In this document: piece after piece, positions 7,701 through 45,218 of the stretch
Layout: each line of letters begins with the position of its first letter
Position numbering within the stretch: position 1 is the first letter of the stretch
Assembly: GCA_031763025.1 (NCBI GenBank)
Contig: JASSKH010000040.1
Location: 2,059,001-2,123,000, forward strand
From: Macrocystis pyrifera
Lineage: Eukaryota; Sar; Phaeophyceae; Laminariales; Laminariaceae
Length of the DNA: 64,000 nucleotides
Direction of reading: 5' to 3'
The notes under the pieces: generated by a model
Databases searched by the model: none
Seen by the model: the letters and a program-made list of their open reading frames with translations, nothing else
What the model was told of the DNA's origin: nothing
Made by a program: the position numbers and the translations under genes

Positions 7701-9042
7701 AATCCGTTTGCTCCCTAAACTGGACTGCAGTCCTAAAAAGGGTCAAGCTGTACTTTCGAAGTCAGGGTCGAAACAGATATGTCTCGTTTTACAGGCGTCT
7801 CAAGGCCGGGGGATTTTTCCCCCTCGATCGGGGAAAGGGGGAAATTTCTCGTGGTAAGAGAAACCGTGGAAAACGTTTTAATGTCGGCCGGCAGAAAGTA
7901 CAGTAGCCGCGAACGGCGAGCGCATCTGTCTCATACATACAGTAGCGCCTTGGAGGGAGACGGTGGTGCCGGCCGTAGCGTGAATACAACCTCTTGCGCT
8001 TTGTGGATTGCGAGCGCAAACAGAGATCGTTGCAAGCGCCGAAGCTTACTGTCGCACCGCGAACAACGTGTTTGTTCAACCGTGACGTGTGTGGTGCGCT
8101 TCCACATTTTGTGCATGATCCAATGCTCAGCTGTGACAATGGTCGACGCAGATGTCACTCCCATCCGAAACAGGACGGAGATGCCGATCCGTTCTACTGT
8201 ATACGTACTGTGTATGCACTGGGCGGTCACCAACGTTCGGAAAACCGTTACAGAAATGCGGTGTATACACGTTTCGTCGGGCCGTCGCCATTGCCCCCCA
8301 ACCGGTCATGCATGGTAATTAGTACACCCCACCTCGCGTAGTGTGTATGTTGGTGAGGCACCCACGAGGCAGTTACATAGTGAACCCACCGTTGTCTCTG
8401 GAAGTGGCCGCACCAGAAATTAGGTCAATTCATTGATGCTGTCATCCATACGCAAGAAAACCCGCCTCACAAGCGGTTCTTAGTAGGATGCAGCTCACCC
8501 TTCATGCGACTCGCCAGACACCTCACGGCGCTTCGCGCTTGGTGCAAGCAATGTCTACCTGGCCGGTGAACACCCGACGTGCTGCTTCCCGGCACTGCAG
8601 GGATGCGAGGGTCTATGGTCATACGACTTCGGCCATGCATGATAATGAGTACACCCCCCCCCCCCCCCCCCCCCCCCCGACGCGCGCGCGCCCCTTCTCA
8701 TACCTTAGAAATTCTGGTAGGGCCGGCGTTGACGTACCTAAAAATGCACGTACGGATGCTGTGCGCTCAATACCATTTGAGGCCTAACTCTCGGGTGTTG
8801 AGTGTCCGAATTCGCCCACTAGCGCGCGTCGTTTTCCATGGGCGATTGAAGGGATTCTTGCTGCTGCTGGTGCCGGTGCTGTCAATAGTTGCTGGCTTGG
8901 GACCCTCGCCGCTAAGGGGCTATAGCGAGTCTTCGTTTTTTTATAACCTCCCGCGTACGTATTTTCTGGAGGAAACACGACTCGTGGATGGAACCGAGGC
9001 GACCATATGATGTTGTCTGGACCCGCCGTCGTGTGCTGCTGC

Positions 9043-9075
<33 letters not shown>

Positions 9076-12000
9076 GTGAAGTGCGTTCGGTGAAGGTCAC
9101 CGATCCCACGGCAACACGTTTCCCTCTGTTCCGTTTCCCTTGCGGACGTTTTGGGCAAACACGAAGGCAAATCGCGTGAAGCTGGACGTTTTGAAGGAGT
9201 TCTTGAGGTTCTGGGTGGCTTTCAGCGTGGTGGACGAGGAGGGCGTCGGCCGTGTCAATGCGGCAGATCTGAAGGTAATAATAACACAACATGTTCGTTT
9301 TTTTTATTGTTTTGCCAGAAATCTTACGGGTAGAGAAGAGGCGTTTCACCTCGAACGCACACACCGACTTATTCTTGCTCAGTCTCGAAAAATTAAGCGA
9401 CTCGCCGAAACGCCCTCAGGAACGACCTTGCCTCGGATGTGGCTGAATGCGTTTCCCCCCCCGTAGGTTCTTCACACCGTTATGCATGAATGTGACACTG
9501 TAATCGACGTAGCCTCCCTGTACCGAATGCTAACGATACCGTACCGCTGACATTACAGATCACTGATCCCCGTAAACTTCACCTCTTGCTCTTTAGCACT
9601 TGCGATAATTTACCGTATTCCCACAACCTAACTGTAGGCCCTACTCTGGCTCGCCGGAGGCGCAGGGGGAGAAGAGCCCCCCGAAGCTTCCGTACAGGTG
9701 AGGCCAGCGTAGTAAGACTGGTAACGCCTCGACCCGGCACGTGTGTCGGCGCCGCGACGGTTGCTCTTTACCAGGTGCATGACATCAGAGCCGCGACAAG
9801 ACATAAAGTAAAACACAATCGATCGAACAAAAGGGACGAGTGTGGGGGATTTATTAAGAGGGAACTGCCGTTTTGCACGATGTGAGCGAGCCGAGCTATG
9901 ATAGCCGATGGCGAAAACAGTGCTCGCAGACGGAAGCATTGTCTTGCGCAAGCACGGATGTGCTTCAGCACCTATCCAATGCTTAGAACACCCTCAGCTA
10001 GCACGAACCGTTTCCTGCCCCTCGCCTCGTGCCCTCTTTTCCTTGCATGACTTTTCCGCGCGCTTCGCCCTCCTTCCTGCACCCTTACCCCGACCCTTTT
10101 CCTCTGAAGACACAGTCAAGAATGTAGCGGCTATGGTGCGCAATACACAGACAATGCCCCCCCCCCCCCCTCTTCACTACGGCCACGCATGGCATGAGTA
10201 CACCGCCCCCCCGCCCTATAGAATATACCTGGTAAATATATATATATATATATATTGGTTGGGTTGGCGTCGGCTGGCGACAACGCTGTGAAACACGCCT
10301 CTCACTGCGTGAGCTACTCAACCAGGGTACCATTATTTCTTGTTGTTTGTCGTCACCACGGCTGGCGGTCGAGTTAGGTCATTTTCGTGCGGGGAGAATC
10401 TTAACTCCCCCCCCGCTATATTTGGTATGTATAGGTTGGGTTGGCGTCGTTTGGCGACGACGCTGTAAAACACGCTTCTCACCACGTGAGCTAGACTGCG
10501 CAGGGTACCGTTTTTTGGTTTTGGCGGTCACCACGGCTGGCGGTCGAGTTAGATCATATTTGTGCGGGGAGAACTTACACTCCGCACAAGTGGGATGATC
10601 GTATCTCGTATTACAGGGGTCCATAGTTAACGGGACCAAATTTTGTTAGTAAAAATAGGCAAATATATAGGTTTTTATGTACACCATAGGTCCTGTTAAC
10701 TATGGACCCCCGTAATAGTGCGTATATGGTATGGCACTCACGAGGCAGTTACATAGTAAACCCAGTGCTGTCTCTGGAAGTGGCCACACGCGGGGAGAAC
10801 CTTCACTCCGGGCAAAGGGAATGATCGTATCACGTAGTGCGTATATCGTATGGCATCCACGAGGCAGTTACATAGTAAAAAACCCAGAAAGTGGCCTCAC
10901 CAAAAAATAAATCAATTCGTTGACGTTGTCATCCATACACAAGAAAATCCGCCTCAAAAGCGGTTCTTTGTAGGATGCAACTCACCCTTCATGCGACTCG
11001 CCCAACACCTCACTGCGCTTCGCGCTTCGTGCACGCAATGTCTGCCTGGTCGGTGAAAACCCGACGTGCTCCGTCCCGGCAATGTAGGGATGCGAGGGTC
11101 TATAGTCATACGACTACGGCCATTCATGATAATGATTGCACCCCCCCCCCCCTCGCCCTCGCCCGCGCACTCGTATGTGCAACTCCCTCCCTCCCGTCCG
11201 TCTCGGCTCGGAAGAAAACGGTGGATGAGATAGACGAAAGCCGGGACGGCGTCATCGAACGCATGGAGTGGATACGCTACACCGCGGTGCTCGACGAAGG
11301 GACAGGTATATATATATATACGTTCCACTATGTGCGGACGTTTTGCTAGTTTTGAATCGGACCTTTTCCCTCCCATTCTAATCGGACGTTTTGGCAGAAA
11401 TGCCACCCGCAGGGTGCTTGCCCGGAGAAGGCGAGGAGGAACGAGCCGAGTACTTTTTATGATAGGCGCATGCCACGATGGGGGTTTGCACTTTTTATTT
11501 TCGGCCAAAATATTTCAGACTGACGGAGGGGGGGTGTACTCGACAGGAGAGATGTACTCGATCTCATGCATGGCCGTAGTCGTATGACCATAGACCCTCG
11601 CATCCCTACAATGCCGGGACGGAGCATGTCGGGTTTTCACCGACCAGGCAGACATTGCATGCACCAAGCGCGAAGCGCCGTGAGGTGTCCGGCGAGTCGC
11701 ATGAAGGGTGAGCTGCATCCTACTAAGAACCGCTTGTGAGGCGGACTTGCATATGGATGACAGCTTCAATGAGTTAGTTTAATTTTCGGTGTGGCCACTT
11801 CCAGAGACAGCAATGGGAGTACTATGTAACTGCCTCTTGGGTGCCTTACCTTGAACACTACGTGATATGATCAATTCCCTTGTGCAGAGTAAAGGTTATT
11901 TAATTCGCACAAATGATCCAACTAGACGACCAGCTGTGGGCGACCGCCAAAAAAAACAAACAAAAAAAAAACGGTACCCTGGATGTCTAGCTCACGTAGT

Positions 12001-12804
12001 GAGCGGCATGTTTTACAGTGTCGTTGCCAACCGACGCCAACCCAACCCATATATGACTGACGGAGGGGGGGGGGGGTATCTCAACTGAAGACCCAATATC
12101 GTTGCAATACTTTTTGTGTCTTAACCCCTTTTTAGGACGGCACTCCCGTTGTGGGAGATAAAACACCCAATGTTACTATTAGTAAAAATTAGGTACATGT
12201 AGAGTAGTGCAGTGCTAAACGGGCCAAGATTTATTTTTTTGATATATCACCTACCGACCTGGACGTGAATATGAGCACCGTTTAGACATGAATATGAACA
12301 CCAAGCGGTCCTTGTAATTACGCCCGGAGTTGTATAGGCCATGTTTTTTTAGTGGGGTTTAGAGCTCTTCAAGCAAGGACCCTCAGAAGGCAAAACCAGG
12401 CGCACCCCTTAACGTGCTAGGAGCCTCAGGAGGAAAAAGTAGATGCACGCCTTGACGTGGCATGCGTCATTCATTGGTCAGTACGAGGTTTGGTGCCGAG
12501 GGTATTTTTAACCCGGTATTTTTCCGGGTGTTTCAAGGAAACAAATTGCGGAGACTAGACCCACCGAGCTTACAGTAGGTCGCACGTTGGAAGCGCTGTC
12601 TGTTGCCTTTACCAGCGAGTTACCAATAGATCGATAGATGTCTCCTGCTGCGCACGGTTACGACCAACAGTACCTCTCTTCTTCGGGATCCTCCCCGGAC
12701 TCCTTCGCAGATCGACTTTGAGCCGACTTGCCAGCGAGAGATGCATTTTTAGATGTTACTTTTACTTTAGCGCAAACACGACGTCCACGTCTTTGATTGA
12801 GATT

Positions 12805-12842
<38 letters not shown>

Positions 12843-15800
12843 GCGCTTGTTGGTGCGTTGCGTCTATGTTGTTATTTTTTTTTATTTGGAGATTGGGATT
12901 GACGAATTTTAACCGAGAATTGAGAATTGAGAATTGAGAATTGAGAATTGAGAACTGAGAATTGAGAATTAGGAGTTGAGAACTGACTATTGACTGTTGA
13001 CAGTGGGCAAATTGACAATTGATCGCTGACAACTGATAGAGATTGCGAGATTGAATATTGATCAGTTGATGTTTTCTTGGTTGCTGTTACCCTTTCTTCT
13101 CGCCAAGCTACGTAAAGCACCGACGAACTCGACAGCGGAGGACCGGTGAAATCATATTCGAGCGCACGGCGACGCACATCGTACCCGGGGAGAGCCGACT
13201 CAGGCCACCCCACAATAACGACCCTCCACCCACGACGATGTGTTGATGAAGCACGCAATTATCCTTTTCGTGCTGCCGCTGATGCTTTGCCTTTGTCGCA
13301 CTTATTTGCACTTTGCACGCGTACGGCAGGGAGCCTGGGGTTCGACCGCGGGTTGATGAACGTTTTCCGCCGCTACGACGACGACCGCAGCGGCAGCATC
13401 ACTGCAAGCGAGATGAGCATGATGGTAGGCGGGGGGGGGGGGGTTGGGCGCGTACAGTGGTACTGTTGCAGGGATATACACGTCTAAAACAACACCTAAC
13501 TTTTCCGAAACTCCGCGCTTGAAGACTAGCCCTCTGTACCTTGCTCAATAACCAGCTTTGACAAAATGTACCCGAGGGTACATACAAGCTATTACGGGGG
13601 ACCATAGCAAAATAGGACCAAATATTGTTAGTAAAAATAGGTAAACATATAGGTTTTTATGTATACCATAGGTCCTATTAACTATGGACCTCCGTAATAA
13701 CACCGATACGCAATCCAAGGCGAAAAAAAACGATGTAAGGCACAACATCGGGTAGCCCGCTTTTAGTTGCAATGGTTGATGCGAGGGTTGAGGAGCTCCA
13801 ATGCCTGCCGTAGCAGGGGTCTGTGATGGCTGAAGGGAGACAGAGAGAGAGAGCCTAGAACAGATGCATGTCAACCGTAAAAGAAAAAGGCGTCGTCACG
13901 CGCTTGGCCGTAGGGCACCGAAGACGACGGTTGTATCGCTTCAAATCCCCGCCTGCCTCCCTTCTTCTTCTTCTTGTTGTTATTTTTCGGGTATGGTTCC
14001 TTTTTTTATCATGCGTTTTCTTCGGGGCGATACGTAGGAAAAGCGTCCTGGAAGGCGGTTTTTATCAGACACCGGCTACCTGCTAGCAGTAAATTTTTGT
14101 GTACGAGTACGGTATTTTGCCAGGGAGCTATTGTATGTAGCGCGCGGTTGGTTCCGAGAACGAAAGCAACGCATACCGAGGGTTTCTATGTTCGCGGAGG
14201 CGGGTGCGAGACACTGCCATGGAGGCCGTAGCGTGCGACAGGTTTCGAGAACAAAAACAAAAATCATCGAGAGTTTCTATATTTGCAGAGACGGGTGCGA
14301 GACGCTGTCATGAAGGCCGCAGCGTGGGATAGGTTTCGTAAAGGAAACAAAAACTTACCGAGGGTTTGTATGTTTGCGGAGGCAGGTGCGGGACTCCGTC
14401 ACGGAAGCCGTTGCGGAAGCTCCGGGAAAATGTTCCCTCCGGCCGGACATGGAAGCTGTCGTCGAAACTATGGTCAAGGACATCGCAAGGGATCTTGTCA
14501 CGGTGAGAATGCAAAGCACACCAATCAACGCCATAGTTAATTGCCACGCTCGAGGGAGACGATATCGAGGGTACCAAACGACGTACGGACTGCGTGTGTT
14601 GTCGCACGTGACCGCACAAGGGCTGAAGCGCGGTATCACCATTTTTTTTGTGCCATGTTTGTAGTTTGATGATATTTACACTCTCGTTTTTGCCAAGTCG
14701 TGCACAAGTTACATCTGCAGTGCATAACAATGCGTACCCGTCCGTGATGCGCCTGGGTGCGCACGAGTTTCACTCATTTCATGCTTCCGTTTCATAATTT
14801 CCCTGCTGTTGTGATTGTTTTGGTACATTGTTGGTTCGCCCTCCCATCCCCCCTTTCATGCAAGCGCAAACGTCCACCTGGCGACACAAGAAAGCTCCTA
14901 CCCCCCCCCCCGGATCTGGTCTGATGCCTACTTTATGCTCTTGCCGCGTGCCATTATATTTACTGCTTCAGCCCCCCATCTTCTCGTCGATTTTCCCCGC
15001 CGAGTGTTTCACTCTGTCGGGCTAAGATGATTCTTCCCCTCAGCCTTCTCTTGGGGGAAAATGACGACATAAAAAGTGACGATTGCAGCAACGACCACTG
15101 CGTGACCAGGGGATGATACAATGGTTGGTGTCCGAGTTACAATGGTTGATGCAGGGACTCGTACAGAACGGGCGCATCATGATCCTACCCCTATTTCTGG
15201 GCCCTCACGCTGCTCGTAGGCGGTTGAAGAACACCCAAGTCACCAACCATTGTTTTGGTCGCTATCTAGAGGGTTAACGCCAAAGGAGTTGATCCGATTA
15301 GGACTGCACTCCCGTTTGGGGGACAAAACGCTTGTAATTAGAGTCAGTTTTAGGTTCCTGTACGCTGCAGCACTAAACGGGATGAGGTATTTGTGGCGCG
15401 CTGTGTACCCCAGCCTTACGTGCGGACTAATAGTCGTGTCGAGCACGACGATCGAAACCCTTGGTCACATTTTTCGAGCCCCCAAAGAAATAGTAGTCTG
15501 TTTGCCCTGCGCTGCCCTGCGTTGCCCTGCGTTGCCCTGCCCTTCTCTGTAAAAATTGCGTCGCGCTTCCCCAGGGCTGTAGTTTCCATGGAGAATCGAA
15601 ATGATCTAATACGTAAACAGTAGCCAGTACAGTCTATCGTGCGTTCGACAACAAGACAAGATACACGACACGAAAACTCCGTCGGGGGCGGGGGGGGGGG
15701 AGGGGGGGGTTCATCGAAATGTTGTCCTTCTCGCCGAAGCCAATTTTTTATCCGAAACCCTCTTGCCGGTGTGTGTGCGTGTCAAACGCTCAAGCACCAC

Positions 15801-17105: not shown

Positions 17106-17561
17106 GTCTGAGGTGTGACTTGTGCATCGTTGCAGCCATGTCGTTGACGGCGGAGCTTTCTTTCGAGCTTATTTTTGAACTATTATATCTCTACTGATAG
17201 CGACTCGCTGGACCTTGTTTGCACAGAACAATGCTCCTTCCCATTTCTGTTGACTTTCTGCGGGAACGGAGTATCAAAGGTGCTCCCCTCCCTCCCTCCA
17301 GACACAACACACAGACCCATCAACAGCGCTGGAGCGCAACAAGAGCTTTAGTGTAGTCGGTTGGCATCGCTCTGACGTTTTTATTGGAGGGGGAAAAAAC
17401 AACTTGAACAATGGTAAAGGCTCAAGCTTCAGTCGATTGACGTGACGACGAGACGGAGAAAAAAATGCCTTCAAGCTGCGACTCGCCAAATCATCTGGTT
17501 TCACTTTTACACAAGCACCCATAGGTCGAGATACATTAACCCCTCCCCCCTACATATATTT

Positions 17562-17635
17562 GCTCCGTCTCGAAAGGGATGCGTGGTCAATGGTCAAACG
17601 ACTAAGGCAAGCAACAAATGAGTACGCCCCCCCCC
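17562..17635 (+). repeat. Short end-module of the poly-C-ended family (variant)
   Basis: The variant end reads ctccgtctcgaaagggatgc, then gtggtcaatggtcaaacgac, then a module ending gagtacgccccccccc. It aligns with the terminal 80 bp of the larger repeat (ctccgtcccggcattgtagg ... gagtacac), so it is a diverged duplicate of that end. Confidence 0.75.
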
Positions 17636-17667
17636 TATATATATATATATACCTGGTATATATATAT

Positions 17668-18153
17668 AGGTTGGGTTGGCGTCGGTTGGCGACGACGCTG
17701 TAAAACATGCCTCTCACTGCGTGAGCTAGACAGCCAGGGTACCGCTTTTTTTTTTTGGCGGTTACCACGGCTGGCGGTCGAGTTAGATCATTTTTGTGCG
17801 GGGAGAACCTATGCTCCGCACAAGGGGGATGGTCGTGTCACGTAGTGTGTATATGGTGAGGCACCCACGAGGCAGTTACATAGTAAACCTATTGCTGTCT
17901 CTGGAAGTGGCCACACCAGAAATTAACTCAACTCATTGATGCTGTCATCCATATGCAAGAAAATCCGCCTCTAAAGCGGTTCTTAGTAGGATGCCTTCAT
18001 GCCACTCGCCCAATACCTCACGGCGCTTCGCGCTTGGTGCAAGAAATGTCCGCCTGGTCGGTGAAAACCCGACGTGCTCCGTCCCGGCATTGTAGGGATG
18101 CGAGGGTCTATAGTCATACGACTACGGCCATGCATGATAATGAGTACCCCCCC
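17668..18153 (+). repeat. Poly-C-ended dispersed repeat, full copy
   Basis: This is the best complete copy. It starts after (TA)n at ggttgggttggcgtcgg, then ggtaccgctttttttttt, ggcggtcgagttagatcat, the gtgcggggagaac block, ggcagttacatagtaaa, the cggcgcttcgcgcttgg core and tcatacgactacggccatgc, ending gagtacccccc at 18147-18153. About 485 bp, non-coding. Confidence 0.85.
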
Positions 18154-18165
18154 AAAAAAAAAAAT

Positions 18166-18501
18166 CGTATCACGTAGTGTGTATGTGGTGAGGCACCCAC
18201 GAAGCAGATTCATCGTAAACCCGTTGCTGTCTCTGGAAGTGGCCACACCAAAAATTAAGTCAGCTCATTGATGCTGTCATCCATACGCAAGAAAACCCGC
18301 CTCTGGAGCGGTTCTTAGTAGGATGTAGCTCACCCTTCATGCGACTCGCCCAACACCTCACGGCGCTTCGCGCTTGGTGCAAGCAATGTCTGCCTGGTCG
18401 GTGAACACCCGACGTGCTCCGTCCCGGCATTGTAGGGATGCAAGGGTCTATGGTCATACGACTACGGCCATTCATGATAATAATAATTACCCCCCCCCCC
18501 C
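18166..18501 (+). repeat. Poly-C-ended repeat, 5'-truncated copy
   Basis: It begins gtatcacgtagtgtgtatg directly after the previous copy's tail. It carries the same core and ends gataataataattaccccccccccc (C tract 18491-18501). Confidence 0.85.
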
Positions 18502-18889
18502 AAATTAGCAAAAAATATATGTGCAAGGCATGGAAATAACGTTATGAGCGCCCAACTGTTGGAAGTGTCGTTAATAGGAGAAGGAACGGTGCTCCGTTTC
18601 TTTAAGGGAAGCGTGGTCGTGGTCAATGGTTGAATGAATATGGCAAGCAACAAATAGGCCCCCCCCCCTCGTTTTATTCCCCCGCTTCGCCTCCTGCACC
18701 CCGTCGGAGATATTCGTCGAAATCGATCGAACCACGCCTTAACCCGTATCACCGTCGCATGTTTCAAGACAAAATTTCGTGGATTAAGTGTGGGATAATG
18801 TTTCCAGTGGTGAGAAGGACTCACACGTCTGGACAGCTCACGATTCACAGTAGACCATCAGATCCTAATATAACACCTGCCGTTTTGAG

Positions 18890-19559: not shown

Positions 19560-19780
19560 TTGCGGGGGACCATAGTAAATAGGACCTATGGTACGCACTG
19601 AAAACTATATACTTCCCTATTTTTACGAACAATATTTGGTCTTATTTACTATTACGGGGGTACATAGTTAATAGGACCTATGGTATACATAAAAAAAAAC
19701 TATATATTTACCTATTTTTACTAACAAAATTTGGTCCTGTTAACTATGGACCCCCGTAATATTAGTATGTTCCCCCGTAA
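19560..19780 (+). mobile_element. TTACGGGGG MITE interrupted by a second copy
   Basis: The outer copy starts ttgcgggggaccatagtaaa after TA (19558-19559) and its right end is tatgttcccccgtaa at 19766-19780 followed by TA. It is split by a younger copy at 19652-19759. Confidence 0.75.
19652..19759 (+). mobile_element. Younger TTACGGGGG MITE nested in another copy
   Basis: Inverted ends are ttacgggggtacatagttaa and ttaactatggacccccgtaa, flanked by TA (19650-19651 and 19760-19761). It sits near the right end of the outer copy. Confidence 0.8.
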
Positions 19781-20426: not shown

Positions 20427-20439
20427 GTGCCTCATCGGA

Positions 20440-20615: not shown

Positions 20616-20819
20616 AAGTTGCAGAAAGAAAAAAGGGGAAAAGATGACACCTTTCACTCAGCTATGTATAGCTGTGAGATCGAAAGTTTCGTCAAAACCT
20701 GCATCTTTGTAAATAGGCTGTGGTGATGACCGCGCGTGGTGCCTACGGGGGTGTACGACCCCATGTACGACCTCGTGAAGATTTTGGCTGATTTTAAAAA
20801 AAAAGGTGTAGTTCGTTGT

Positions 20820-28300: not shown

Positions 28301-31300
28301 TAAGACAGACAGACAGACAGACAGACAGAAAGCGCTCTCGCCTGAAGGTCGAGTTTGACCACCGACACCGGCAACGACGCCGAGTCGAACGCGGTGAAGT
28401 AGCCGAACCGACTCTTGCGGCCCACCAGACTCTGGCGGATCTGCGGGAAGTCCATCCCTTCCTTCGGGGGAAGGGGCAGCAGGCTCTTCCTCGAAGCCGC
28501 TCCCGTGTCAAGGTTGAGCACAGTAGTGTGTGGCTGGGGCAGGCTGGCTGGACGGACAGGTCGGGAAGTACGACAGGGAAGGGGAGGGGGGGGGGTGTAC
28601 TCGATATCATGCATGGCCGTAGTCGTATGGCCATAGACCTTCGGATCCCTACAATGCAGGGGAGCGTGGGGTTATATTTACACATATAAAGAGTGCTAGG
28701 TATCTTTCTCAAGGATTAATCATCAGGACGGACACTTGAGTATGTAGTCGGGCAGAATGAACGGTTTAGCGTGAAGACAACACACGTAGTGCTAACCTTT
28801 TTTCCATACGTCGTTTGACAAGAGTTACGATCTAAATAATCTGGATCCTAAACCCTGCCGTTGAGAAATATCGGAGCAGGCGGTACAGTGCGTAGCTCGT
28901 CCGGACCCTAACCTGATGATCTGGGCCCTAACCTGACGATCTGGATCCCAACCCTGCCGTTGAAAGATGTTGTGCAGGATCACTATCTACAGATAGATCA
29001 TCTACAGTAGATCGCCTAGATTCTAACCTGCCGTTCCGAGTTGCTGTGCAGGATCTGTATGGTACAGATCCTACCCAGGAAACACATGCTACAATAGAGA
29101 GATAGATCATGTGCAGATTATACGGCGTCCACCCGGCGGCATGAGCTAGATCACACAGATCAGGAATATAAGTTCCCTGAAACATTAGATAATTAAGTGG
29201 GGGTCGGTGATCTGTTCAGTGTGGGGAAGTTTCGGAGGCCAAGCAACATGTACCTGTACTTGGAGGGAGCTTGTGGGAGAAAGGGGGAGGCTTGGCGAGT
29301 TGTAGCTGCCCCACTTCCCTCTCTCAGCCCGAAGCCGCCACACAACGCCACGAGAGAGTTTTTTCGTTTCTTTTCACGAGAATCGTCGTCATACCCATGC
29401 TCTTGGTGCCACTGGGCAAAAACAAGTCGGCCGACCAGCCAATTACCGCTACTCAAATCAAAGCACACGCGATATTGTGTAACGAAAGCCCAGTATAGAG
29501 TTGAAAAAAGCACCATGCCCCCCCCCCCCCCCCCCCCGACCCCGCCTGGTCGGTGAAAACCCGACGCGCTCCGTCCCGGCATTGTAGGGAGGCGAGGGTC
29601 GATGGTCATACGACTACGGCCATGCATGATAATGAGTACACCCCCTCCCCCCCCCCGACCCCGTCTATGGTCATACGACTACGGCGATGCATGACATGAG
29701 TACGCCCCCTGCCCACCCCACTTCGTCTCGAAAGGGATGCGTGGTCAATGTTCGCATGGCTAATACAAGGAACGGGTCAGTATCCCCCCCCCGCAACCTC
29801 TTCCGATGAACGGATGCGTCCTGCCGCACAACGAAGGCGATCCCTCCTACGAAGTGGAATGCGTCCCTCGGTACCACGAAAACAACCCGACACAAGAGCA
29901 TAGGTACGGGGGCGCTACACACGAAGGACCCGACAACAACGCATAGATACGGAGCGCTATTTACTCCTGCAGTGCAGGGAACAGAGGGCCCTGGCTTCCA
30001 CATCAGGTACAGCCAAGCAGTAGATGAAAACGGTGTTCCCCTGCGCGGGATACTCTACACGCAAGCTCACCCGCCGACGGTTCCGTCATGTACGCGGTCA
30101 GGTCCAGGTTGAACTCGAACATGTCGCAGGTAACGACTTTCACTACGGTGTTCGTCGTCGGGGGCGCACCGTCCTGCCCCTCCACCTCCACGGTTTCCTC
30201 CCACGCGTTGACCACGTGAAACGCTACGAATGTCTGCTTGTCTCACGGCACCGACAAAAAAACGTTGTCGTGTGGAAACCGAACGGAGAGTTGAGAAGGG
30301 GGTGGGAAAAGCACCGCGGAGTTGTCAGAACGACAGAATGAGTGCCTAAGACAGTGTATCACCCCACCGAGCAACAGATACCTGGTAAACATTTTCGTGT
30401 GGAAACCCGACAAGAGACGTACGAGAGAAGGCGATCGGAAACGAACCGCGGAGTTGTCACAACCGAAAGCGCCCGTTTAGACACGCCAAGGTCGGTTCGA
30501 CCCCAGGTTTGGCTCCGCGGGGAGCGCAGGGTTTCAGCTCGATCAAACGCGCCTTGAAAGCAGTCGGGGGGCGTCACATCGAAGAAAGACCCCGTGTTCG
30601 ACGCGCTGGCCCTGTGACGTCATGCGGCGGTGCCGATCGGGTCGACCAACATGATCGAAGCAACAGCAGTCCCAACAGCAACAACAACAGAAATAAGAGA
30701 GCTGAACGTCCTGATGAGCAAGTAGCGGTCTCAACATCGACAGCAAAAACGGCGAGAGCTGAATGTGGGCAAGATCGAAGCAACCAGCTAGGACAGCAAA
30801 AAACAATTGGACGAAGAGAGCTAAGTGTTCTATCATATGACTGAAGCAACAGTTTCAACAGCGACAACGATATAACGAAGAGAGCTGAATGTATCCACGA
30901 TCAAAGCAACAGTCTCAACAACGACACAAGAAAAAAAAATAGCGAGAGATGCATCTTTTCCTCATGACCGAAAAGTAACGAAATTAAAAAAAGCAACCGC
31001 AAGAGAACGAACAGAGCTGTATGTTCCCGAGATCGAAAAGCAGATGTCTCAACAGCAACGCAGGAGCGACGGAACGAAGGGAGCCGAATGCCCATTCTCA
31101 CTTCGGGTAAGTCGAACCAACGAATGCCGGATGAATCGGTCGCGTTCAGCGGAAGAACGCCCATCCTGAGCAAGGGCACAAAAGGGGCAGGGGTAAGAGA
31201 AAGGGTGGACGAAAAAACAACAATCCAGACACCACAATCATATACCTGGTGCCTGGTACGAGGTTTAAGGTTCCAACGTCGATGGGGTGCGCGGGAGGGG

Positions 31301-34300
31301 AGGGGTGCACTCATGCCATACATGTTCGGAGTCGTATGACAATAGACCCTCGCATCCATACAACGCCGGGACGGAGCACGTCGTGTTTTCGTCGGCCAGG
31401 CAGACATTGCTTGCACCAGACGCGAAGCGCCGTGAGGTGTTGGGCGGAGGGGAGGGGTGTACTCATTGTGATGCATGGCCGTAGTCGTATGACCATAGAC
31501 CCTCGCATACCTACAATGTCGGGACGGAGCACGTCGGGTTTTCACCGACCAGGCAGACATTGCTTGCACCAAGCGTGAAGCGCCGTGAGGTGTTGGGCGA
31601 GTCGCACGAAGGGTGATCTGCATCCTACTGAGAACCGCTTTTGAGGCGGACTTTCTTGCATACGGATGACAGCGTCAATGAATTGATTTATTTTCTGGTG
31701 TGGCTACTTCCAGAGACAGCAATCAGTTTACTATGCAACTACCTCGTGGGTGCCTGACCATGTACACACTACGTGATATGATCATCCCCCTTGAGCGCAG
31801 ATAAGGTTCTCTCCGTACAAAAATGATCTAACTCGACCGCCAGCCGTGGTGACCGCCAAAAAAAAAAAAGGCACTCTGCTTGTCTAAGTCACGCGGTGAG
31901 AGGCATGTTTTACAGCGTCGGCGCCAACCGACGCCAACCCAACCTATACAAATATATGTATATATATATTGACCAGGTATATAATGGGGGGGGATGACGG
32001 TGACACGAGAGCCAGCGATGGCACCGACCTGCATCGAAAAGGAGGTACACCCTTGTTACGGTTTCATCTGAAGCAGGGGAGCGCACTTTTCCACACCTCC
32101 AACAGATCATGACCTATGTATCTACAGATAGATCATGATCTGTAGTTGCTCACGTGCCGTTGTGAGGAGTTGTGTAGGATCTGCAACGTGCGTATCCAAC
32201 CCAGAAAACACACGCTAGATCATACGGGCTGTACGGGTCCCACCCAGCGAAATGAGCTAAATCGTATCAGGTACAAGATCGGGACCAGATGATCTGTCTG
32301 CCTTGAAAGATCTAGGTCATCAAGTGGGAATACATGATCTGTGGATGATCTGTTCGAGGTGTGTTTTTTGTGTTCGGCAGCGACAAGCACAGCATCGCGC
32401 ACGCGCCGCCCCGCGCTAATCGCGACACCGTACAAAGGCAAATACAACGCCCAGGCATGGGCTAATAATGCGGACAACCGAAACGCGACAAAAAACAAAC
32501 TCACGACTACACTTTTTCCACAAGCACGAGGAAAGGCTACGATAAACCAGGAATAGAGTATTGTGCACGAGCTGGTTCAAGCATATCGCCCCAAAAAAAA
32601 ATCGTCGTTCACGATTGCCGCATGCAATAGCAACTCAAATGCCACATACTTGGTATCGGACTGACCGCCATGAACAGTGGAAGAGGGTGGCATAGCCAGC
32701 GTTTTCATTAAGGGCCTGGGACTGACACCACCACCGAGGACGTGACGCGAACAATCACAGGCCTTCAAAGAGGTCAATAATAGTCAGGCGTTTCTGTCGG
32801 AATAGATATATTTCCAATTTTATTTCTGAACGAGACGCTTCCAGATGGTCCAAGGCATATGTTTGTACATAGTTTCACGCAAATACTCCAAGATTTGACT
32901 GCGTATGGTTAATATCTTGGTAGTAAGTACTACCTAAAGCCCTAAATCGATTTTGTACTGAAACTAAGTAACTACGAGGAGATGCCGGAATTCGCACGTT
33001 TACCTCACAAGGTCCCTAATACCCACGCCGTTTTTTAAGAGATAAGCCCCGAACTTTTGCACACGTGTTTTATAAAATCCCTGCCGAACCAACGACGAAC
33101 GTTTCTTTTTTTCGTCGCCGAAAAATTAAGACCCAGATCTCCCAAAAAAAACGGAACCCCGAAATATTTTGTCAAAATAAATAAACTAAAAATCAACCGG
33201 TAACGGGTCGGCAGGGGGTCATAGCACATATGTGCCAATTTTCAGGATATCCCTCGCAAAAACGGCGAGGGCATTGGACTCTTACGGAATTTGGGGCGAT
33301 TTGCTTGAACCAACCTGTAAAAATGTCGTAGTATACACGCGTTCCGGCGACAAAAACAGGGATAACACACTCTCTTCTGAGCACCTATAGACATAGGTCT
33401 GCTCGCTACATATTAAAAAAATAATTGCCACTTCTCTCGCTGGTCTGGCCCTCGTTTCAAGCGGGCTGGCTGTGCGTTACACATCGACACATAGCACCCA
33501 GCCTCGAGCTCATAGGATAATCAACATCTTGGGGCATGCTCGTCTCCTCACCTGGAGCCCAGCGTTGCGTCGAATCCAATGGGCATCTTACCCTTGAGGA
33601 AGTTCTGGGGCTGCATCACCATGGGTAGGTCGAGAAAGACGGCGTAGTTCTCCGTGATCGCGAAGTCGTGCATCATCGAGCCTCGCGGGAGGTCGATGGG
33701 GAACTGCGCGACCAAAAGGAGGACACGACAAAAAATAAGCAAGAAGAAGCGCAGAACAAACCACCGCATGTGCGCACCCGAACGCGCACGCGAGCATGCA
33801 CACGAACGCGCACGCGCACACGCCCGTCCGCCCGCTCGCTCGCCCAAAAATGATTGCACAGAACAGATGCAACAACCACCGACACGCTCGGAACTAGAAA
33901 ATTGGTGCGTTGTTACGCACTACGGTAAACATGGAAAACTCTTACGCAACGCATCATCGCTCATCGATCGGAACGGACCGCGAACGGAAGCAGACTCCTC
34001 CTGCGGAAGAGGCGTTTCTGTGCCGTCCTTCCAAGCGCGACGAGTCGTCCTACAGGTGGGATTGCAATAAGGGGTTGTTTCACTTTCGCTTCGGGCAAAT
34101 ATTTTTCACTGACGGAGAGGGTTCCTCAACCATTGAATCAACCATGGCAACCGAGGAGCTATGATACGTACCCAATTTGATGTTTTCATCCCGATGTGAT
34201 CACTACAACATTCCAATGAACGACCTTGTACGAGCCCATGGGAGTAGGTACGTGACGGGGTTAACTCACAAGCCTTGTCCTCAAAAGGTGTTGGTTGGAT

Positions 34301-37300
34301 GAGAGAGGTATAGCGCTCTTCAATAGAGAGGAACCTCACAAAATGTGGGTGCTACCCCTACTATCGGGGACCATAGTAAGTGGGACCAAATATTGTTAGT
34401 ATTAATAGGGAAATATATGGGTTTTTGTGTGTACCGTATGTGCTATTTACTATAGTCCTCCGTAATAGTACCATAGCACTCGGCTGGCCGCGAGCGAGCG
34501 CGTTTGGGGCGGTCTCGCCGTCGAGTAGTGCCCTTCGTCCGTACGGAGCACCACCGGGCGGCGGTTTTGAAGTCGGCGGCGGAAGCGGAGGCGGCGGCGG
34601 CGGTGGCGGCCGCGGTGCAACCCTCACCTGACGCTCGAGCTTGCCCTTCTGGTCCACCGCGAAGAACGTCAAGAATGGACTCTTGTCCATCTGCATAAAC
34701 AAAAACAAAAAACGACGTGCGGGACGCGACATGCGAGAGTAACAGGCTGAGAGTGGTCGGAACGCAGCCACACAAGAAAAGCCGCCGCGCGCAACCGAGA
34801 CGCGCTTACAGTTCGGATCGACCGACCCACCCAAGCACGCACACCCGGCTGGTTTACCACACGTGCCACGGCTCGTAGCCCTTGACGACACGGTACTACC
34901 GCAGCACAAGGCAATGCGCGCTATAGCGCAGATAATGCGACACCAGTGCTTCCGCTGCCGCTATTCGTAGGAAGCGCCAGCCTCCAGCACACACCGGGCG
35001 AGAGATAAGAGGTTCGGAGAGAAAAAAAAGTAACAACTTGACCACTAGGCTGGAGCGACAGCGCTGACTCAAGACTATCCAATCTATATGCGCATTCCAT
35101 GGGGCTCAAGCACCGAGGACACACCGAAGTAAGCCGGAAGAGACAGCGACCTGGAGCACAGAGGGGGGCGGTAGCCGTTACATGCTTCTTACAGCAAGAG
35201 GAGGCCTACCAATCCCGCCAGCGCAGTGCCGTTGGGTCTCCCAAGCCGTGATTTTGGCCAAGCCTTGAACATGGAGAATCTGATACCCCGGCCCACCGAC
35301 AACAACACCCTATACAAGATTTTTCAGCTATCGTTTTGGGTGCCGCACGATCTCGGCGCAAATGCCTGCCACCTTTTTAGAAAATCAACATGTCACCAGG
35401 CGTTTCAAGATTACACACAACGAGCTCGCGGCACTACACACAGAATCCGCGCGGTTTTACGCAGGCGGTCGCAACTGCAAAACCTGTGGCGGCGCTTGAG
35501 GACATTCATGTCTACCTTGTAGCTAAACGCGTAGAGTTTTCCATTGGACGGGTCTTGCTTCGGGTGCGCCGTGAAGTTGCTCTTGAGCGCCCCCTCGAAT
35601 GAACTCCTGCCGATCGTCTCGAGCATCCCGTCACACATCACACGTAGAGCGTACGGCATGCCGCCCTCGTTGAGGGCCAAGAGGCGCCCTTCGGTTGGTA
35701 ACCCGGCGTGGGCGACACACCAGAGGCAAAAAATTCACGAGCCAGGCATTGTGGGGGGGGGACGGGGGTACTCATGTCATGCATGGCCGTAGTCGTATGA
35801 CCACAGACCCTCGCATCCCTACAATGCCGGGACGGAGCACGTCGGGTTTTCATCGATCAGGAAGACATTGCTTGCACCGAGCGCGAAGCGCCGTGAGATG
35901 TCGGGCGAGTCGCATGAAGGGTGAGCTGCAACATCTTACTAAGAACCGGTTGGACATTTTGGCATTGGTTGACAGCGTCCAATGGGGGGGGGGGGGGGGG
36001 GGCGGTAAATGCTAATATGTTGCGCGTGGGCAAGACCCTGCGACGTCATACATGTCACTTCCCCCCCCGTGCAAGCACGAGGGGCGTTCCAGGGTTCTTC
36101 GACATAGAACGCGCTGCGAAAGCGGCAACACAACTAATGTGTCCCTACCATGACGTGAATGGATGTAGTTTCAGCACATAGGTTAGTTGGATGTTTCCTT
36201 GCATTCAACATTCCGTTGACCTTGGATTGTGTCCCGAGGAGTTGCCTACTATGCCAGGGCCTTCAGCAGTAGTGGCATTTGTATTGCGAGCGTTCCGGAA
36301 GTGAACCCTTCCCGAATTGGCTTTCACGTCGACGGCTGATGTCGTGCTTATTTCATCAGGAGAGTTAAGGGTTAGCGTGGTCAAGGCCAAGGGGGTTTCC
36401 TGCGAGCGTCGACGGGTACGAGCGAGCGCTTGGAGAACAGCAAGTCTTCGGACACCGCGCTGCGCCGTGATCGCCCAAGCGAAGCACACCCTTACCCTAC
36501 GTCGGCGGGTACGAACGAGCGCTTGGAGAACGACAAATCGTCGGACACCGAGCTGCACCGTGGTAGCCCGAGGGAAGCACACCCTCACCCTACAGGGGGG
36601 GCAACTGGACAGCAACAGAGGGACACACAGCGGTGGGTCGGGGGCACCCAACGAGCACCACCGCTGCCACGGTTAGGGACGCGAGCCTTCCGACAGTGGT
36701 TGTGCCCCGCAGCGCGTCGCAAATGATGACCCCTCTCGCCAGTACGCGGTACGCCGCAGATATCGGCGAGGGGTTTAGTTCGACAGCGACAACGACACGA
36801 CTATATTTTCGTTTTGCGTGGGATCTTCACACGCGTGTGGCACTGCTGTACGGCAGGAGGGTAGTAGCTCTTCAGACGCGTGTGCGCGCGTACTGTACGA
36901 CGGGGTTCGTAGCACTTCTCGGCCATTTTTGTTTTTGTCCGACATGACGGGGCATTTCTCAACCGAGGAACTATTTCAATAAGGCGCATGCCTTATGAGG
37001 CACGGCTTATCGTTGGAACCGCACTTGTATCTCACATTAACACTCGTGCATACACATGTCCATCAAATAGACCATGACCTTTTTCATAGGGTTGAACGCA
37101 CTTTTTTTAAAATCAAAGTCGGTGCCGTGGTTGGGGGGGGGGGGGGGTACTCGATAGGAGAGATGTACTCGATCTCATGCATGGCCGTAGTCGTATGGCC
37201 ATAGACCCTCGCATCCCTACAATGCCGGGACGGAGCACGTCGGGTTTTCACCGACCAGGCCGACATTGCTTGCACCAAGCGCGAAGCGCCGTGAGGTGTC

Positions 37301-40300
37301 CGGCGAGTCGCATGAAGGGTGAGCTGCATCGTGCTAAGAACCGCTTGTAAGGCGGACTTGCATATGGATGACAGCTTCAATGAGTTAGTTTAATTTCCGG
37401 TGTAGCCACTTCCAGAGACAGCAATGGGGAGTACTATGTAACTGCCTCTTGGGTACCTTACTTTGAACACTACGTGATACGATTAATTCCCTTGTGCAGA
37501 GTAAAGGTTCTTTACCTCGCACAATTGATCTAACTCGACGACCAGCTGTGGGCAACCGCCAAAAAAATAAACAAGAAAAAAAAACGGTACCCTGGTTGTC
37601 TAGCTCACGTAGTGAGCGGCATGTTTTACAGTGTCGTTGCCAACCGGCGCCAACCCAACCCATATAATAGGGGGGGGGGGGGGGGGGGCGTACTCATTTG
37701 TTGCTTGCCTTAGTCATTTGACCATTGACCACGCATCTCTTTCGAGACGGAGGGGGGTGGGGGGTATATCTGGACTTCAGGAGCCGTAAAACTTCTCAGT
37801 AGGTGCACCCATCTGCTGACGCAGCATGCTTCTTGCTTCATGCGGCATCTCACCTGAATGAAACTGGAGGGCCGTGTTCGCGGTTGACTCGTGAATCCCA
37901 GTCCAGTCCTGAGCAAGCCCCAGGCGGATCTTGAGGTTGTAGATCAGCATCTTGGGGATGGCCAGACGGGACCCCAAGTCCCCGAATCTACGGCCAGCAG
38001 AGCACGCGCCACATACGCAAGACGTCGAGAAAGCGAGCGGGAAAGGTCGTTTTGAGCGCAAAAGCCGCTACGGTAGCGCTAGACGCTAAAAGTCGCAACC
38101 GACGAAAGGTAGACGAAGCACGTGGCAATCACGGACAAGGCGGGCGAAGAGCCGACGTCGACATCCAACTAAGGACCGCACGCAGACTCGTTACACCACT
38201 AAATTACGGTGCGACCTGATCCCAAATGCGGTGCAACCTGAGCTATCGAGCTGCCCAACGCTGTAAATAATCAATTAAACAGTAATAGCCTACGCAAAAA
38301 AAACATCTGGGAGAAGCGGACAGTGATCCCCGCTGGCGGAGCCAGAGCAGAGGCACCACCCGCAAGCACAGATACGCGACGACTTGATGATGGGCAAGGG
38401 CATCCGTTCATCGACGCGCGCCGTGCTGACCGGATCCGCCACGCTTGCTCGACCCGCGCAGCTAACCGTTGCTGCAGCGAGCAGGTGCGATGCACCGAGT
38501 GGGGGATCGCTGTACCACCCGCAACACCGACCCCGTTGGCAAGGGCAGTACAGCTTCCTACCCCGTCGTGCCCTAATCTGATGCAGACGGTGCCGCACAA
38601 CGATAAGCTGCTCGCGACAAAAAACGTACACGAACACACACGCACACGCACACGCACACCCAATCGAGCGTGCTTACGTCAATGCGACGGGTTCGCCCGC
38701 TTCTTCTTCCGCCGCGAGCCGTTTGGTCCTCACGTAGCGGTTTGTGTACGTCGCCTTCCCTCCCTTGATACGCACGCCGTGAATCTTTTCGCACCAAGGG
38801 TTGGGGTGGGGTGGGGTGGGGTGGGGTGGGGCGGGGCGGGGCGGTGGTTTCCCGGTACGAGGCAAGCAAAATATGACAGGCTCGCATTATGACCGGTTAG
38901 GGCGGTCGGATCGGGTTGGGGAGGGAGGGCTTGGGATACCGTTCACATTGTGACAACGCGTCGTCTTGGCGGCTCAAGGGGTGGAACCTGTCTAGACTCC
39001 TTCCCACGGACAAGAGTTTCAATCCCTTCGCTACTGCAAAAAAATTGCCCCCACACTTATTTTCGAGCAGTTTTCGTTTTTTTTTTTTTTGAAACGTGGG
39101 TACGGTTCCAAAAAAAAAAAGGGTGGACAGTTCGCGGCCTCTAGCACAGGTGGCTTTTAGGGGCATCGATCCCGTCCAGAGGCAGAATGCCATCGGAGGA
39201 TGTCCAAGCTCGCGACTGTAGAGGGCTGCCACAAGCGTCGAACGCATTAACAAATCCACGGAACATGGTGTGCAGTGACATCAACAATCTCTCGACGCAA
39301 GTTAACGGGGGGAGCGAGTGCTGGGCCCGTAACGCCAAAGCAAGAACCGGAGGAGATATAAAGAGGGGACGGGGGACGGGGGGCGGCGGGGGGGGCGTAC
39401 TCATTGTTGTGCATGGCCGTAGTCGAATGACCACAGACCCTCGCATCCCTAAAATGCCGGGACGGGGCACGTCGGGTTTCCACCGATCAGGCAGACATTG
39501 CTTGCACGAAGTGTGAAGCGCCGTGAGGTGCTCGGCGAGTCGCATGAAGAACGAGCTGCATCCTACTAAGAACCGGCTGTGAGGCGGACTTTTGAGGGGT
39601 CTACTCTGTAACCTCGCGTTGGGTTAAAAACGCGGCCAAAAGGCTAAACAATGCCATAAAACAATCGGGGGGGGGGGGGGTAGGGGTTTACTCTGTAACT
39701 CGCTCACGTTGGGTTTAAAAACGCGGCAAAAGGCTAAATCAATGCCATAAAACTATCGGGGGGGGGGGGGGCGGGGGGGGGCTTCGGTGTTCTACAACAA
39801 GGTAAAAAAGAAGGAGGGTAGGACTGATGTGCCATGATTGTTTTTTTTTAGCTCGGTCTGGTCTACCGAAATTCGCGCACCGATGAGCTATGTGGTGGAG
39901 ACGCTGGTGATCGCGCCGCTTTTTGCTTTCTTCGGATGGACACAAGCACGGTGGGCGGTGCACAACGCGGTGATAGGGGGGGATACTCATGTGTTGTTTG
40001 CCTTAGTCGTTTGACCATTGACCGCGCATCCCTTTCGAAACGCCGATCGGGGGGCGTTTTCCCCCCGAAACTCGCCCCACCCTACAAGCCCGACCGGCGC
40101 ATCTTGCGCTCCCCGCCCGGGGAGAGAAGGCGATCGCTTTGCAAGCAAGCACGCACGCACGCACTCTTGCTTGCTTGCTTCCTTGTCCCGTGGACAACTT
40201 CAAAAGCAATCCGATTGCCTCCTTGTGCCCCTGAACAACTTCAAAGGCAGCAGGCAGAAGGACGCGCCGTTCAACAACGCGGTCTAGATGTCCCATCGAG

Positions 40301-40833: not shown

Positions 40834-40845
40834 CTGTTAACAGTC

Positions 40846-40847
<2 letters not shown>

Positions 40848-40895
<48 letters not shown>

Positions 40896-41150
40896 GGAAA
40901 GGGGGGAGAGAGGGGGAGGGGGAGGGGGGGGGGGGGGGGGGTGTACTCATTATCGTGCATGGCCGTAGTCATATGACCATAGAGGGAGGGGGGGGGGGGG
41001 AGGTGAAGGGGAGCGGAGGAGGAGGTGGTGTGGGGGGGGGGGGGGGGGTCGGGGGGGGGAGCAGGGGGGGGGGGGGGGGGGGGCGTACTCATTTGTTGCT
41101 TGCCTTAGTCATTTGAGCATTGACCACGCATCCCATTCGAGACGGAGCAC
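40848..41150 (-). repeat. Very long G tracts with two poly-C-family ends
   Basis: About 47 uninterrupted G (40848-40894) are followed by further G-rich sequence, then gtgtactcattatcgtgcat (main end), more G tracts, and the variant module ending gagacgg near 41145. The first tract starts 15 bp upstream of the acceptor of CCD exon a. Confidence 0.8.
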
Positions 41151-41900
41151 CGTTCCTACTCCAAATAGAGACACCTCCAACAGTTGGATGCTCATTACGT
41201 TGTTTCCATATATTACATAGAAACTTTTCGCTAATCTTGTCCCCTTCCTGTTAGGCCGCCTGTGGCCACCATCTATCTCCTAGGATAGCGAGCAGGGCAG
41301 GGGCGGGAGTAAGGTGGACAAATAGAGTGACGACAGGCGAAGCGGGTTAAGAGAGTCATTGTCTACACGAACTGTCGTACAAGTAGAATCTTAGCCCGGG
41401 CTGCTGGGGTAGGGGAGAGGGGATGCGTCCGAAGTGCAACAGAAGAAGGTGCACGCCAAACACGCAGTATTCCTGTTAGTACGTGGCATTTCACAGAAGT
41501 TGATAAGACCGCACTCACCGCTTTTTAGGTCGCCGTTCCTGGGTCCCAATTCCTTGAATTTTGACATTCATTTGATATTCGTCGTGTCTATTATTTCATA
41601 AAACAAGAACGCCAATTTACGTAAGCGTGCTCAAAGCGCCTGCGATAAGGGCTGGGTATGATATGCTACCCCCGCCACTGCTGCGTGTTGCTGCTGCTCC
41701 TGACACTGCTGCTACCAAGTGAAGCAGAAAGAAAGTCAAAATATTGTCTACTCTGGTATCGGTTTAAAAAAAAAAAACGAAACGAAATAAACCCACAGAC
41801 TTGTGCTTTTTCAGTAAAAAACAGCAGCTTGAGTCTTAACGAGAACCCCCCCCCCCCCGAAAAATAAGCAAGGAAGCCGAGTCGAATTTTTGGTGCGGTG
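41151..41900. other. No feature recognised
   Basis: Mixed sequence with short open frames only. CCD 5' exons should lie here or further right, but no stretch matches a CCD N-terminus. Confidence 0.4.
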
Positions 41901-43730: not shown

Positions 43731-43761
<31 letters not shown>

Positions 43762-43765
43762 ACGA
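43290..43765 (+). repeat. CTG-rich dispersed repeat, two units
   Basis: Each unit has atgccgaatttsgarttgg then gaagcaggaaacrc, a ggttcagagattagaccaac-like piece and a CTG/TGC-rich end. Units start at about 43310 and 43545. The second ends in a CTG microsatellite (43665-43760). Related copies lie at 61.0-61.4 kb. Confidence 0.75.
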
Positions 43766-43885
43766 TTTTTTTTTTATTTTTTGGAATAAAGAACCCAAAC
43801 GTACGACCGCGTGCGTAAAGTGTTCGTTCGTGTTGGTTGAGCATCCCTTTATAATGGGAGTAAACGCCCCCCTCACGCCTATTGC

Positions 43886-44030
43886 ATAGGTTAGGTTGGC
43901 GTCGGTTGGCAACGACACTGTAACAACATGCTGCTCACTACTTGAGCTACGACAACCAGGGTACCGTTTTTTTTTTTCTTTTTTTTGGAGGTCGGTCACA
44001 GCTGGTTGTCGAGTTAGATCATTAGGGCCC
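43886..44030 (+). repeat. Poly-C-ended repeat, 5' fragment
   Basis: It has ggttaggttggcgtcggttg, accagggtaccgtttttttt and tggttgtcgagttagatcat, then stops. Confidence 0.7.
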
Positions 44031-44819
44031 GTCTTAACGAGAAATATTTTCCATAATAATCCAACAGGAAAAACATACTTTAATTTGGTTTGAACAGAAT
44101 TTCGTGAAAAAGATGCCTTTGGGTTCTATCGGGAATAGCGTAGTAAAAAAAATCGAGTAACGCACAAGGGTCAACGAACACCAGAGGTCAACCAACGAGG
44201 CGAGCGACGGCCCGCGCCCTCCCCGGGGCACCTCGGTCATCGGCCGATTGTTTCTGCTGGCACCGCCGAAGAGGCTATCGCTCTTGGGACGCCTTGGGTG
44301 GCTGGCGCAGCCCCAAAGCCCCACAGCAGGCAGCAGCGACGGGGATACAGCGATCGAATTTCTGAGCGAAGTCGTGACCTGGTCGGCGCTCGTGTGGTTC
44401 GCGAGGCAAAGAGGAATGAAAAGCTGGGTTTGCGACGGCCTTGTAATTTTTGAGGCGCCACAGATGGTCTACTCTGTGCTAGGGGCTGTCAGACTTCGCG
44501 CTGCGGCTTCTCCGGTGGCCCTGTCCTTTGGAAATGGTGAACCCCACCTGTGAAGCAGTCGACAACACGGCTCAAGTTTGCGTGGCTTGCTGCGGTTTCA
44601 GGAAGATGCCATGTCGAGTTGGACAAACTCCCCAAATCGAATAACACGAAGAGCAAAAGAAGTCCCACAAGACTTCTTGTCGAATTCGTTGTTATTCGTT
44701 TTATTCGAATCAAATGTCAAAAAGCCTGATCTATGTTTTACTTTTCGACCAATCAGATGCAAATCAAATCAAACAAAAAAGTATTGGTGGTATCAAAAAT
44801 ATATATATCTTTAAGATAG

Positions 44820-45218
44820 GCCCTTAGTGCGAGGTGAACAACCTTTACTCCGCACAAATGAGAATGATCGTACCACGTAGTGTTTATGGTAAGACACCCA
44901 AGAGGCAGTTACATAGTACTCCCATTGCTGTCTCTGGCAGTGGCCACACCGAAAATTAAATTCACTCATTGAAGCTGTCATCCATATGCAAGAAAGTCCG
45001 CCGCACAAGCGGTTCTTAGCACGATGCAGCTCACCCTGCATGCGACTCGCCGGACACCTCACGGCGCTTCGCGCTTGGTGCAAGCAATGTCTGCCTGGTC
45101 GGTGAAAACCCGACATGCTCGGTCCCGGCATTGTAGAGATGCGAGGGTCTATGGTCATACGACTAAGGCCATGCATGAGATCGAGTACATCTCTCCTATC
45201 GAGTACACCCCCCCCCCC
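44820..45218 (+). repeat. Poly-C-ended repeat, 5'-truncated copy
   Basis: It runs from ctccgcacaaatgag through ggcagttacatagtact and the core to the doubled end gagtacatctctcctatcga then gtacaccccccccccc (C tract about 45208-45218). The doubled GAGTAC matches the 11.5- and 37.1-kb copies. Confidence 0.8.

Follow-up and report, generated by a model that had tools for sequence, protein, structure and literature searches.

Long interspersed nuclear elements (LINEs) insert by nicking DNA and priming reverse transcription from the 3′-OH, and their copies are 5′-truncated. Here we describe two elements with a common 3′ end in a 64,000-nucleotide stretch of the genome of the kelp Macrocystis pyrifera (C130:2059001-2123000, the window): a non-coding element of ~0.5 kb, which we call A, and a partner LINE, the kelp LINE. 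Copies of both run directly into cytosine homopolymers, which very probably serve as their insertion target. We found no LINE that targets a C homopolymer in the literature searched.

Several described systems, cited here from the parts of the papers available to us, resemble the kelp pair. RTEX-N1_Ec32 of Ectocarpus is, like A, a non-autonomous brown-algal element whose 3′ end is shared with a LINE (in its case an autonomous RTE-X LINE) and whose 5′ region is of unclear origin; it is ~600 bp long and present in >6,000 copies (PMC12477816). A is probably a relative or an analogue of this element, and the kelp LINE shares 53% identity with P0125, a protein of Ectocarpus. The available RTE-X text on Ectocarpus mentions no C target, and the word 'homopolymer' does not occur in it (PMC12477816). 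Recent RTE and RTEX LINEs are also present in Saccharina (PMC4421812). The RTE elements of Lepidoptera share with the kelp LINE a very short 3′ untranslated region (UTR), an end made of simple repeats and many 5′-truncated 3′ pieces. Their insertion, however, is not sequence-specific, and their repeat stands between the target-site duplications and was thus absent from the target, whereas the kelp tract lies within the duplications (PMC2887409).

The Bov-B LINE and the Sauria short interspersed nuclear element (SINE) are likewise a LINE and a short partner with a shared 3′ end, and the authors propose that the repeat at the RNA end influences the nick and the priming site; the signature there, unlike in kelp, is Tn-TA and not a C homopolymer (PMC13295347). 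Repetitive targets are used, as in kelp, by the R1 and Tx1 clades, HERO, Togen ((TG)n), the telomeric TRAS and DONG (PMC4640811, PMC2887409). Target-specific LINEs with an apurinic-type endonuclease, the type found in the kelp LINE, are placed in the R1 and Tx1 clades (PMC4640811). The targets named in the available text for these groups are, however, RNA genes, microsatellites and telomeric repeats, with no mononucleotide C run among them (PMC4640811, PMC2887409). Zepp of Coccomyxa and Chlorella is, like the kelp LINE, an algal LINE found in nested clusters, but it forms one cluster per chromosome, probably centromeric, whereas the kelp copies lie dispersed and are nested within C tracts (PMC3446292).

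Results

BLAST searches of the window (G+C content 50.5%), in which the queries were the A consensus and the end of the LINE, revealed 23 elements retaining a 3′ end, located between positions 5657 and 45206. As a preliminary description of the sequence had recognized, they form a dispersed family in both orientations, with a shared ~0.5-kb consensus and a GAGTAC-to-C junction; its starting point of 8332 was too late. A 57-nt piece matches the window nine times at ≤3 mismatches and not once in 100 shuffles, and the window has 50 GAGTAC sites. The GAGTAC junction is not, as had been claimed, a property of every copy, since GATTGC, TAATTA, GAGTGC and GAGTAT also precede the tract in window copies.

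Across the assembly (537,376,219 bases in 223 contigs), GAGTACN followed by C8 occurs at 20,644 exact sites and the reversed pattern at 75; GAGTAC, a single A, G or T, and C12 follow each other at 971 exact sites. A junction common to 20,644 sites argues against an assembly artefact. Collections of viral contigs and of genome contigs each gave no match to the junction pattern. Exact A ends number 1,656 in the assembly, and 1,299 are followed by NCCC; among the remaining 357, 18 of the first 20 listed have a C run of at least 4 within 25 nt. Copies lacking a C tract, the counter-example that had been envisaged, are thus rare. The window contains 53 C/G tracts of at least 7 bases, 50 of them in the first 45.2 kb. 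Zones extending up to 60 bp around element ends cover ~9% of the window and hold 27 of the 53, a count that omits very short copies, among them that at 10196; the family therefore accounts for about half of the long tracts, not for most of them as first thought.

The sequence 5′ of the truncation points bears directly on whether the tract is target or tail. We collected 113 junctions. A criterion for inclusion was CCC no more than 3 nt from the end motif, which means that their 3′ tract does not count as independent evidence. Removing near-identical 3′ flanks left 92, and 71 remained once copies with a 5′ start at most 10 nt from that of the reference were excluded. Twenty A loci were drawn from NCCC-bearing sites; the LINE loci were the 30 top-ranking of 150 scored matches, from 28 independent places. 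The 71 unique truncated copies (43 A and 28 LINE), with 5′ starts mostly scattered, together with the reverse transcriptase partner described below, bear out the earlier view of a 5′-truncated retroposon. Within 30 nt 5′ of the breakpoint, 63 of the 71 have a C run of at least 4 and 52 a C run of at least 6, while a G run of at least 4 is found in one. In 20,000 random 30-mers, runs of at least 4 occur at 9.2% for C and 9.4% for G, and runs of at least 6 at 2.3% and 2.2%. Most insertions are thus at one kind of target (63/71 versus the 9% control), as in target-specific LINEs. A 5′ C run is also present in 48 of 56 copies lying outside element tails, and in 17 of 18 LINE copies fetched without any tract requirement. 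All 30 LINE loci (the best of the 150) end in a C-rich tract, and in the 22 truncated LINE copies that we inspected the C's stand at the break or shortly 5′ of it. The base before the 5′ tract shows no clear preference (A 22, T 18, G 9 in 49 copies; control runs T 387, A 291, G 194).

The clearest target-site duplications consist of the tract plus the 5-10 bases that follow it. Beyond the tract the duplicated bases are GTACCAGG at locus L056, AGGTACC at L047, and TCCGTCAGTC, TCACG and GACCCC in the window. A strict duplication, of at least 3 nt beyond the tract, is present in 7 of 38 testable copies versus 1.9 expected (P 0.00075). In collapsed-tract alignments a copy's own flanks score 6.45 versus 5.75 for swapped flanks (standard deviation 1.72), a difference reached in none of 5,000 permutations. 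The duplications are thus probably real, being clear in single copies and in aggregate, but in most copies they are concealed by the C tract or absent. Searching with the joined flanks of the 113 copies, we judged two alignments to be empty sites, the rest being low-complexity and same-locus matches. The flanks of L043 match a paralogous stretch at L059 (170/236) that lacks the insertion and has C19 at the site; those of L056 match L043 (175/239). A pre-existing C run is thus directly supported by one of the two empty sites.

Because C runs lie 5′ of the breakpoints, the duplications hold the tract and an empty paralogue has the tract, we conclude that the C tract belongs mainly to the target and not to a tail. 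The C-rich tail in place of poly-A that had been suggested survives in part: the model below still requires a short C-ended RNA, and of 71 copies 48 have their longer C tract on the 3′ side and 21 on the 5′ side, a bias that slipping during priming or an added C tail would produce. Tail or slippage may therefore contribute to the 3′ tract.

Once 21 loci had been dropped as duplicates, neighbouring elements no more than 90 bp apart numbered 30 pairs in the same orientation (head-to-tail) and none in opposite orientation. Same-orientation pairs follow if the tract strand sets the orientation and the tract of one element is the target of the next.

Full-length A measures ~510-530 bp, from a TA-rich 5′ end to GAGTAC; many copies are 5′-truncated. 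The TA microsatellite formerly regarded as a far-end flank is this TA-rich stretch, A's own 5′ end, standing beside full-length copies. Copies ending near 11541, 37152 and 45201 belong to an A subfamily with a doubled GAGTAC end. A pattern search of A found no A or B box, and an internal T12 is present; Rfam gave no match in the window at gathering score, and A's TA-rich part had weak, sub-threshold microRNA matches only (E≤1). A SINE transcribed by RNA polymerase III was rejected on the missing promoter boxes, the internal T12 and the lack of an Rfam match. A does have the 3′ end in common with a LINE that is seen in SINEs, and we classify it not as a SINE but as a non-autonomous element that depends on a LINE. 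A Helitron or DNA transposon was likewise rejected on the long duplications, the 5′ truncation and the reverse transcriptase partner, no dedicated terminal-motif test having been made.

The last ~70 nt of A and the LINE end are identical in 56 of 66 ungapped columns, a score unreached in 20,000 shuffles; judged from this alignment, the 3′ ends of A and of the LINE of the same genome are homologous. Folding predicts a hairpin, UGGUC-N4-GACUA, in both. What had been taken for a second, diverged end-module produced by terminal duplication is, by the same comparison, the 3′ end of the partner LINE. At three loci (L011, L019 and L024) we noted similarity to reverse transcriptase 1.3-2.3 kb upstream of the end of this module, on the same strand. 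These loci are 95.6-98.5% identical across 6.6 kb including flanks, and because the near-identity extends into the flanks they represent one duplicated place. They lie on small contigs (C2, C15 and C17) as near-identical segments with different C-tract lengths.

In L024 and L011, broken frames code for an endonuclease of the apurinic type (PF03372, 5.5e-11) and for a reverse transcriptase (PF00078, 1.4e-14), and the kelp LINE copies that we read have a broken endonuclease-reverse transcriptase frame or are truncated. A database protein, P0121, is 85% identical to the LINE and carries both domains in a single frame of 1,360 amino acids. The reverse transcriptase partner whose existence had been surmised is thus a LINE, with the endonuclease and reverse transcriptase, the constant 3′ end and the variable 5′ truncation of such elements. 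P0121 contains no RNase H family at E≤0.01, has no relative in the collections of viral contigs and genome contigs, and has human LINE-1 ORF2p (6.6e-21) as its best relative of solved structure. Among named proteins, those of Ectocarpus are closest to the reverse transcriptases of the window and loci, save for one bacterial-labelled contig.

The frame of L059 shares its C-terminal residues, KASNK, with P0121, P0122 and P0123; its stop codon lies inside AAATGAGTAC, with GTACGC (6 nt) between the stop and the C tract. A short 3′ UTR with a simple-repeat end is a trait of RTE and RTE-X LINEs, and we treat assignment to this group as a lead from the kelp and Ectocarpus papers. The last 167 LINE residues gave 14,001 first-look candidates, and the 150 scored are all at least 90% identical; the assembly has 2,900 exact copies of the LINE end. 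Breaks recur at A consensus position 448 (4 of 43 A copies) and at LINE positions 2358-2363 of the L059 reference (6 of 27 copies). These recurrent break points look like reverse transcription halting at a fixed spot near the 3′ end.

Table 1. Copies of A and of the LINE 3′ end in the window
Feature	Position	Strand	Remarks
A fragment (3′ end), C7 tract	5657..5696	+	Next A fragment abuts; BLAST
A fragment	5697..5790	+	BLAST
A, 5′-truncated, C25 tract	8334..8678	+	
Very short A end	10181..10212 (start approximate)	+	C14 upstream (10157-10170), C-rich tract downstream; below BLAST threshold
A, split copy, C12 end	10426..11152	+	Split by ~110-bp MITE-like repeat (10609-10719)
A, full-length, doubled-end subfamily	11518..12076	-	C7TCCGTCAGTC duplication, 12055-12071 and 11518-11534
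LINE 3′ end, C9 tract	17561..17635	+	
A, full-length	17637..18153	+	Head-to-tail in C tract of LINE end
A, 5′-truncated, C12 tract	18164..18501	+	
LINE 3′ end, C10 tract	18504..18668	+	
A fragment with tract	28586..28661	-	
A, truncated	29518..29662	+	C10GACCCC on both sides (29528-29543, 29647-29662)
A fragment, then LINE 3′ end	29663..29773	+	Head-to-tail
A, truncated	31299..31446	-	Nested in tail of 31459..31993 copy
A, full-length	31459..31993	-	C8 tract at 5′ side (31986-31993)
A, truncated	35753..36002	-	5′ tract 19 C, 3′ tract 9 C
A, full-length, doubled-end subfamily	37133..37688	-	Between two C tracts
LINE 3′ end	37690..37752	-	
A, truncated, with tract	39388..39592	-	
LINE 3′ end, C7 tract	39976..40042	-	
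A fragment	40848..40983	-	Tracts of 18 and 47
LINE 3′ end, 207 bp, C20 tract	41064..41291	-	Includes C-terminal coding part
A, doubled-end subfamily, interrupted	43867..45223	+	Interrupted 44023/44840; C6TCACG at 43867-43877 and 45213-45223

The window also contains other repeats. Copies of a ~110-bp family with partial inverted symmetry, resembling miniature inverted-repeat transposable elements (MITEs), lie at 3943-4054, 10609-10719, 13588-13699, 19648-19761 and 34366-34469; one of them splits an A element. A Ty3/gypsy-type element (50413-59589, minus strand) has matches to gag, reverse transcriptase, RNase H and integrase; its insertion is recent, given that its 310-bp long terminal repeats are 99.7% identical and are accompanied by a likely 4-bp duplication, CGTA. 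At 62322-63740 lies a different kind of LINE. It shows 97% identity over 74% with a protein whose 3.7-kb contig bears the label of a Parasphingorhabdus metagenome-assembled genome but is probably kelp DNA in a bacterial bin. An inverted, internally repeated sequence of ~0.7-0.8 kb lies at 46411-47069 and 48503-49339.

Discussion

The above results are best explained, with high though not complete confidence, by insertion of A and the LINE into C/G homopolymers through target-primed reverse transcription, in one orientation relative to the tract. The RNAs of both elements would end alike, in GAGTAC, then A or G, then C; in the pairing model the RNA 3′ end would be GAGTACGC plus a few C. The LINE endonuclease would nick the G strand at a C/G homopolymer, and the 3′-OH of the G run would pair with the C's at the end of the RNA and prime reverse transcription. 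Copying would proceed until it stops, giving 5′ truncation, and the second strand would be cleaved inside the tract or a few bases 3′ of it. Slippage of the pairing on the homopolymer would tend to make the 3′ tract grow, and every insertion would leave C tracts as targets for later copies in the same orientation.

Several observations weigh against this explanation. A strict duplication beyond the tract is present in only the 7 of 38 testable copies, and a faulty first test, which cut the tract at 14 nt and has since been replaced, gave 1 of 33 versus 3.1% for swapped flanks. The advantage of own over swapped flanks is modest. The empty paralogue of the L056 site reads CACCTCC, without a homopolymer, and 8 of the 71 truncated copies have no 5′ C run, although two of these are window copies that are interrupted, not truncated, and one has C3. 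Homopolymer lengths in the assembly may also be wrong.

We considered whether the tract could be tail only, a long-C-tailed RNA being inserted at random sites, as the preliminary description supposed. The longer 3′ tracts (48 of 71 copies, with 21 shorter) fit this idea, and the available text on Lepidoptera RTE elements documents repeat tails between duplications (PMC2887409); but C runs 5′ of 63 of the 71 truncation points, duplications that include the tract and an empty paralogue with C19 make it improbable. Tracts on both sides of copies, and short end pieces with a common 5′ start (A 448 in 4/43, LINE 2358-2363 in 6/27), could instead point to recombination or gene conversion between C tracts, which would spread pieces with no retrotransposition at most sites. 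Since the 5′ starts are for the most part spread out over A and the LINE, and bases beyond the tract are part of some duplications, we find this just as hard to credit as a tail alone, if not slightly harder.

Still less probable is that the 5′ tract arose by twin or dual priming, or by untemplated addition at the end of the complementary DNA, even though such priming accounts, in the available part of one report, for homopolymers 5′ of truncated L1 copies (PMC2837659). Twin priming predicts the complement of the tail, that is G, and a G run of at least 4 lies 5′ of only 1 of 71 copies; moreover, at L056, L047 and 11518-12076 the element is separated from the tract by bases that come from beyond the target tract. 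Least credible of all is growth of the tracts by slippage after insertion from a short C motif: C/G homopolymers do vary in length, and the near-identical L011, L019 and L024 differ in theirs, but slippage leaves unexplained both the tracts 5′ of the element and the fixed orientation.

Target-primed insertion into homopolymers could be extended to RNA-guided target choice, which we put forward tentatively as a possibility. The C end of the LINE and A RNAs would pair with any exposed G run, reverse transcription would slip on it, and every insertion would lengthen and multiply C tracts, a self-built homopolymer niche that would have shaped the poly-C/G content and nested arrays of a kelp genome.

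LINEs that target repeats are already known; a mononucleotide C/G run as target was found nowhere in the literature searched, and if the kelp LINE is RTE-like, it would be the first target-specific member of that group in the same literature. If our explanation is true, these elements offer a clean natural system, with a run of one base pair as target, in which to set the endonuclease against RNA-to-target pairing as the chooser of the site. Part of the poly-C/G tracts in a kelp genome would also be accounted for; such tracts are fragile sequences in nematodes, according to the available text of one study (PMC2211496). The C homopolymers in brown-algal assemblies would then be largely biology, not artefact.

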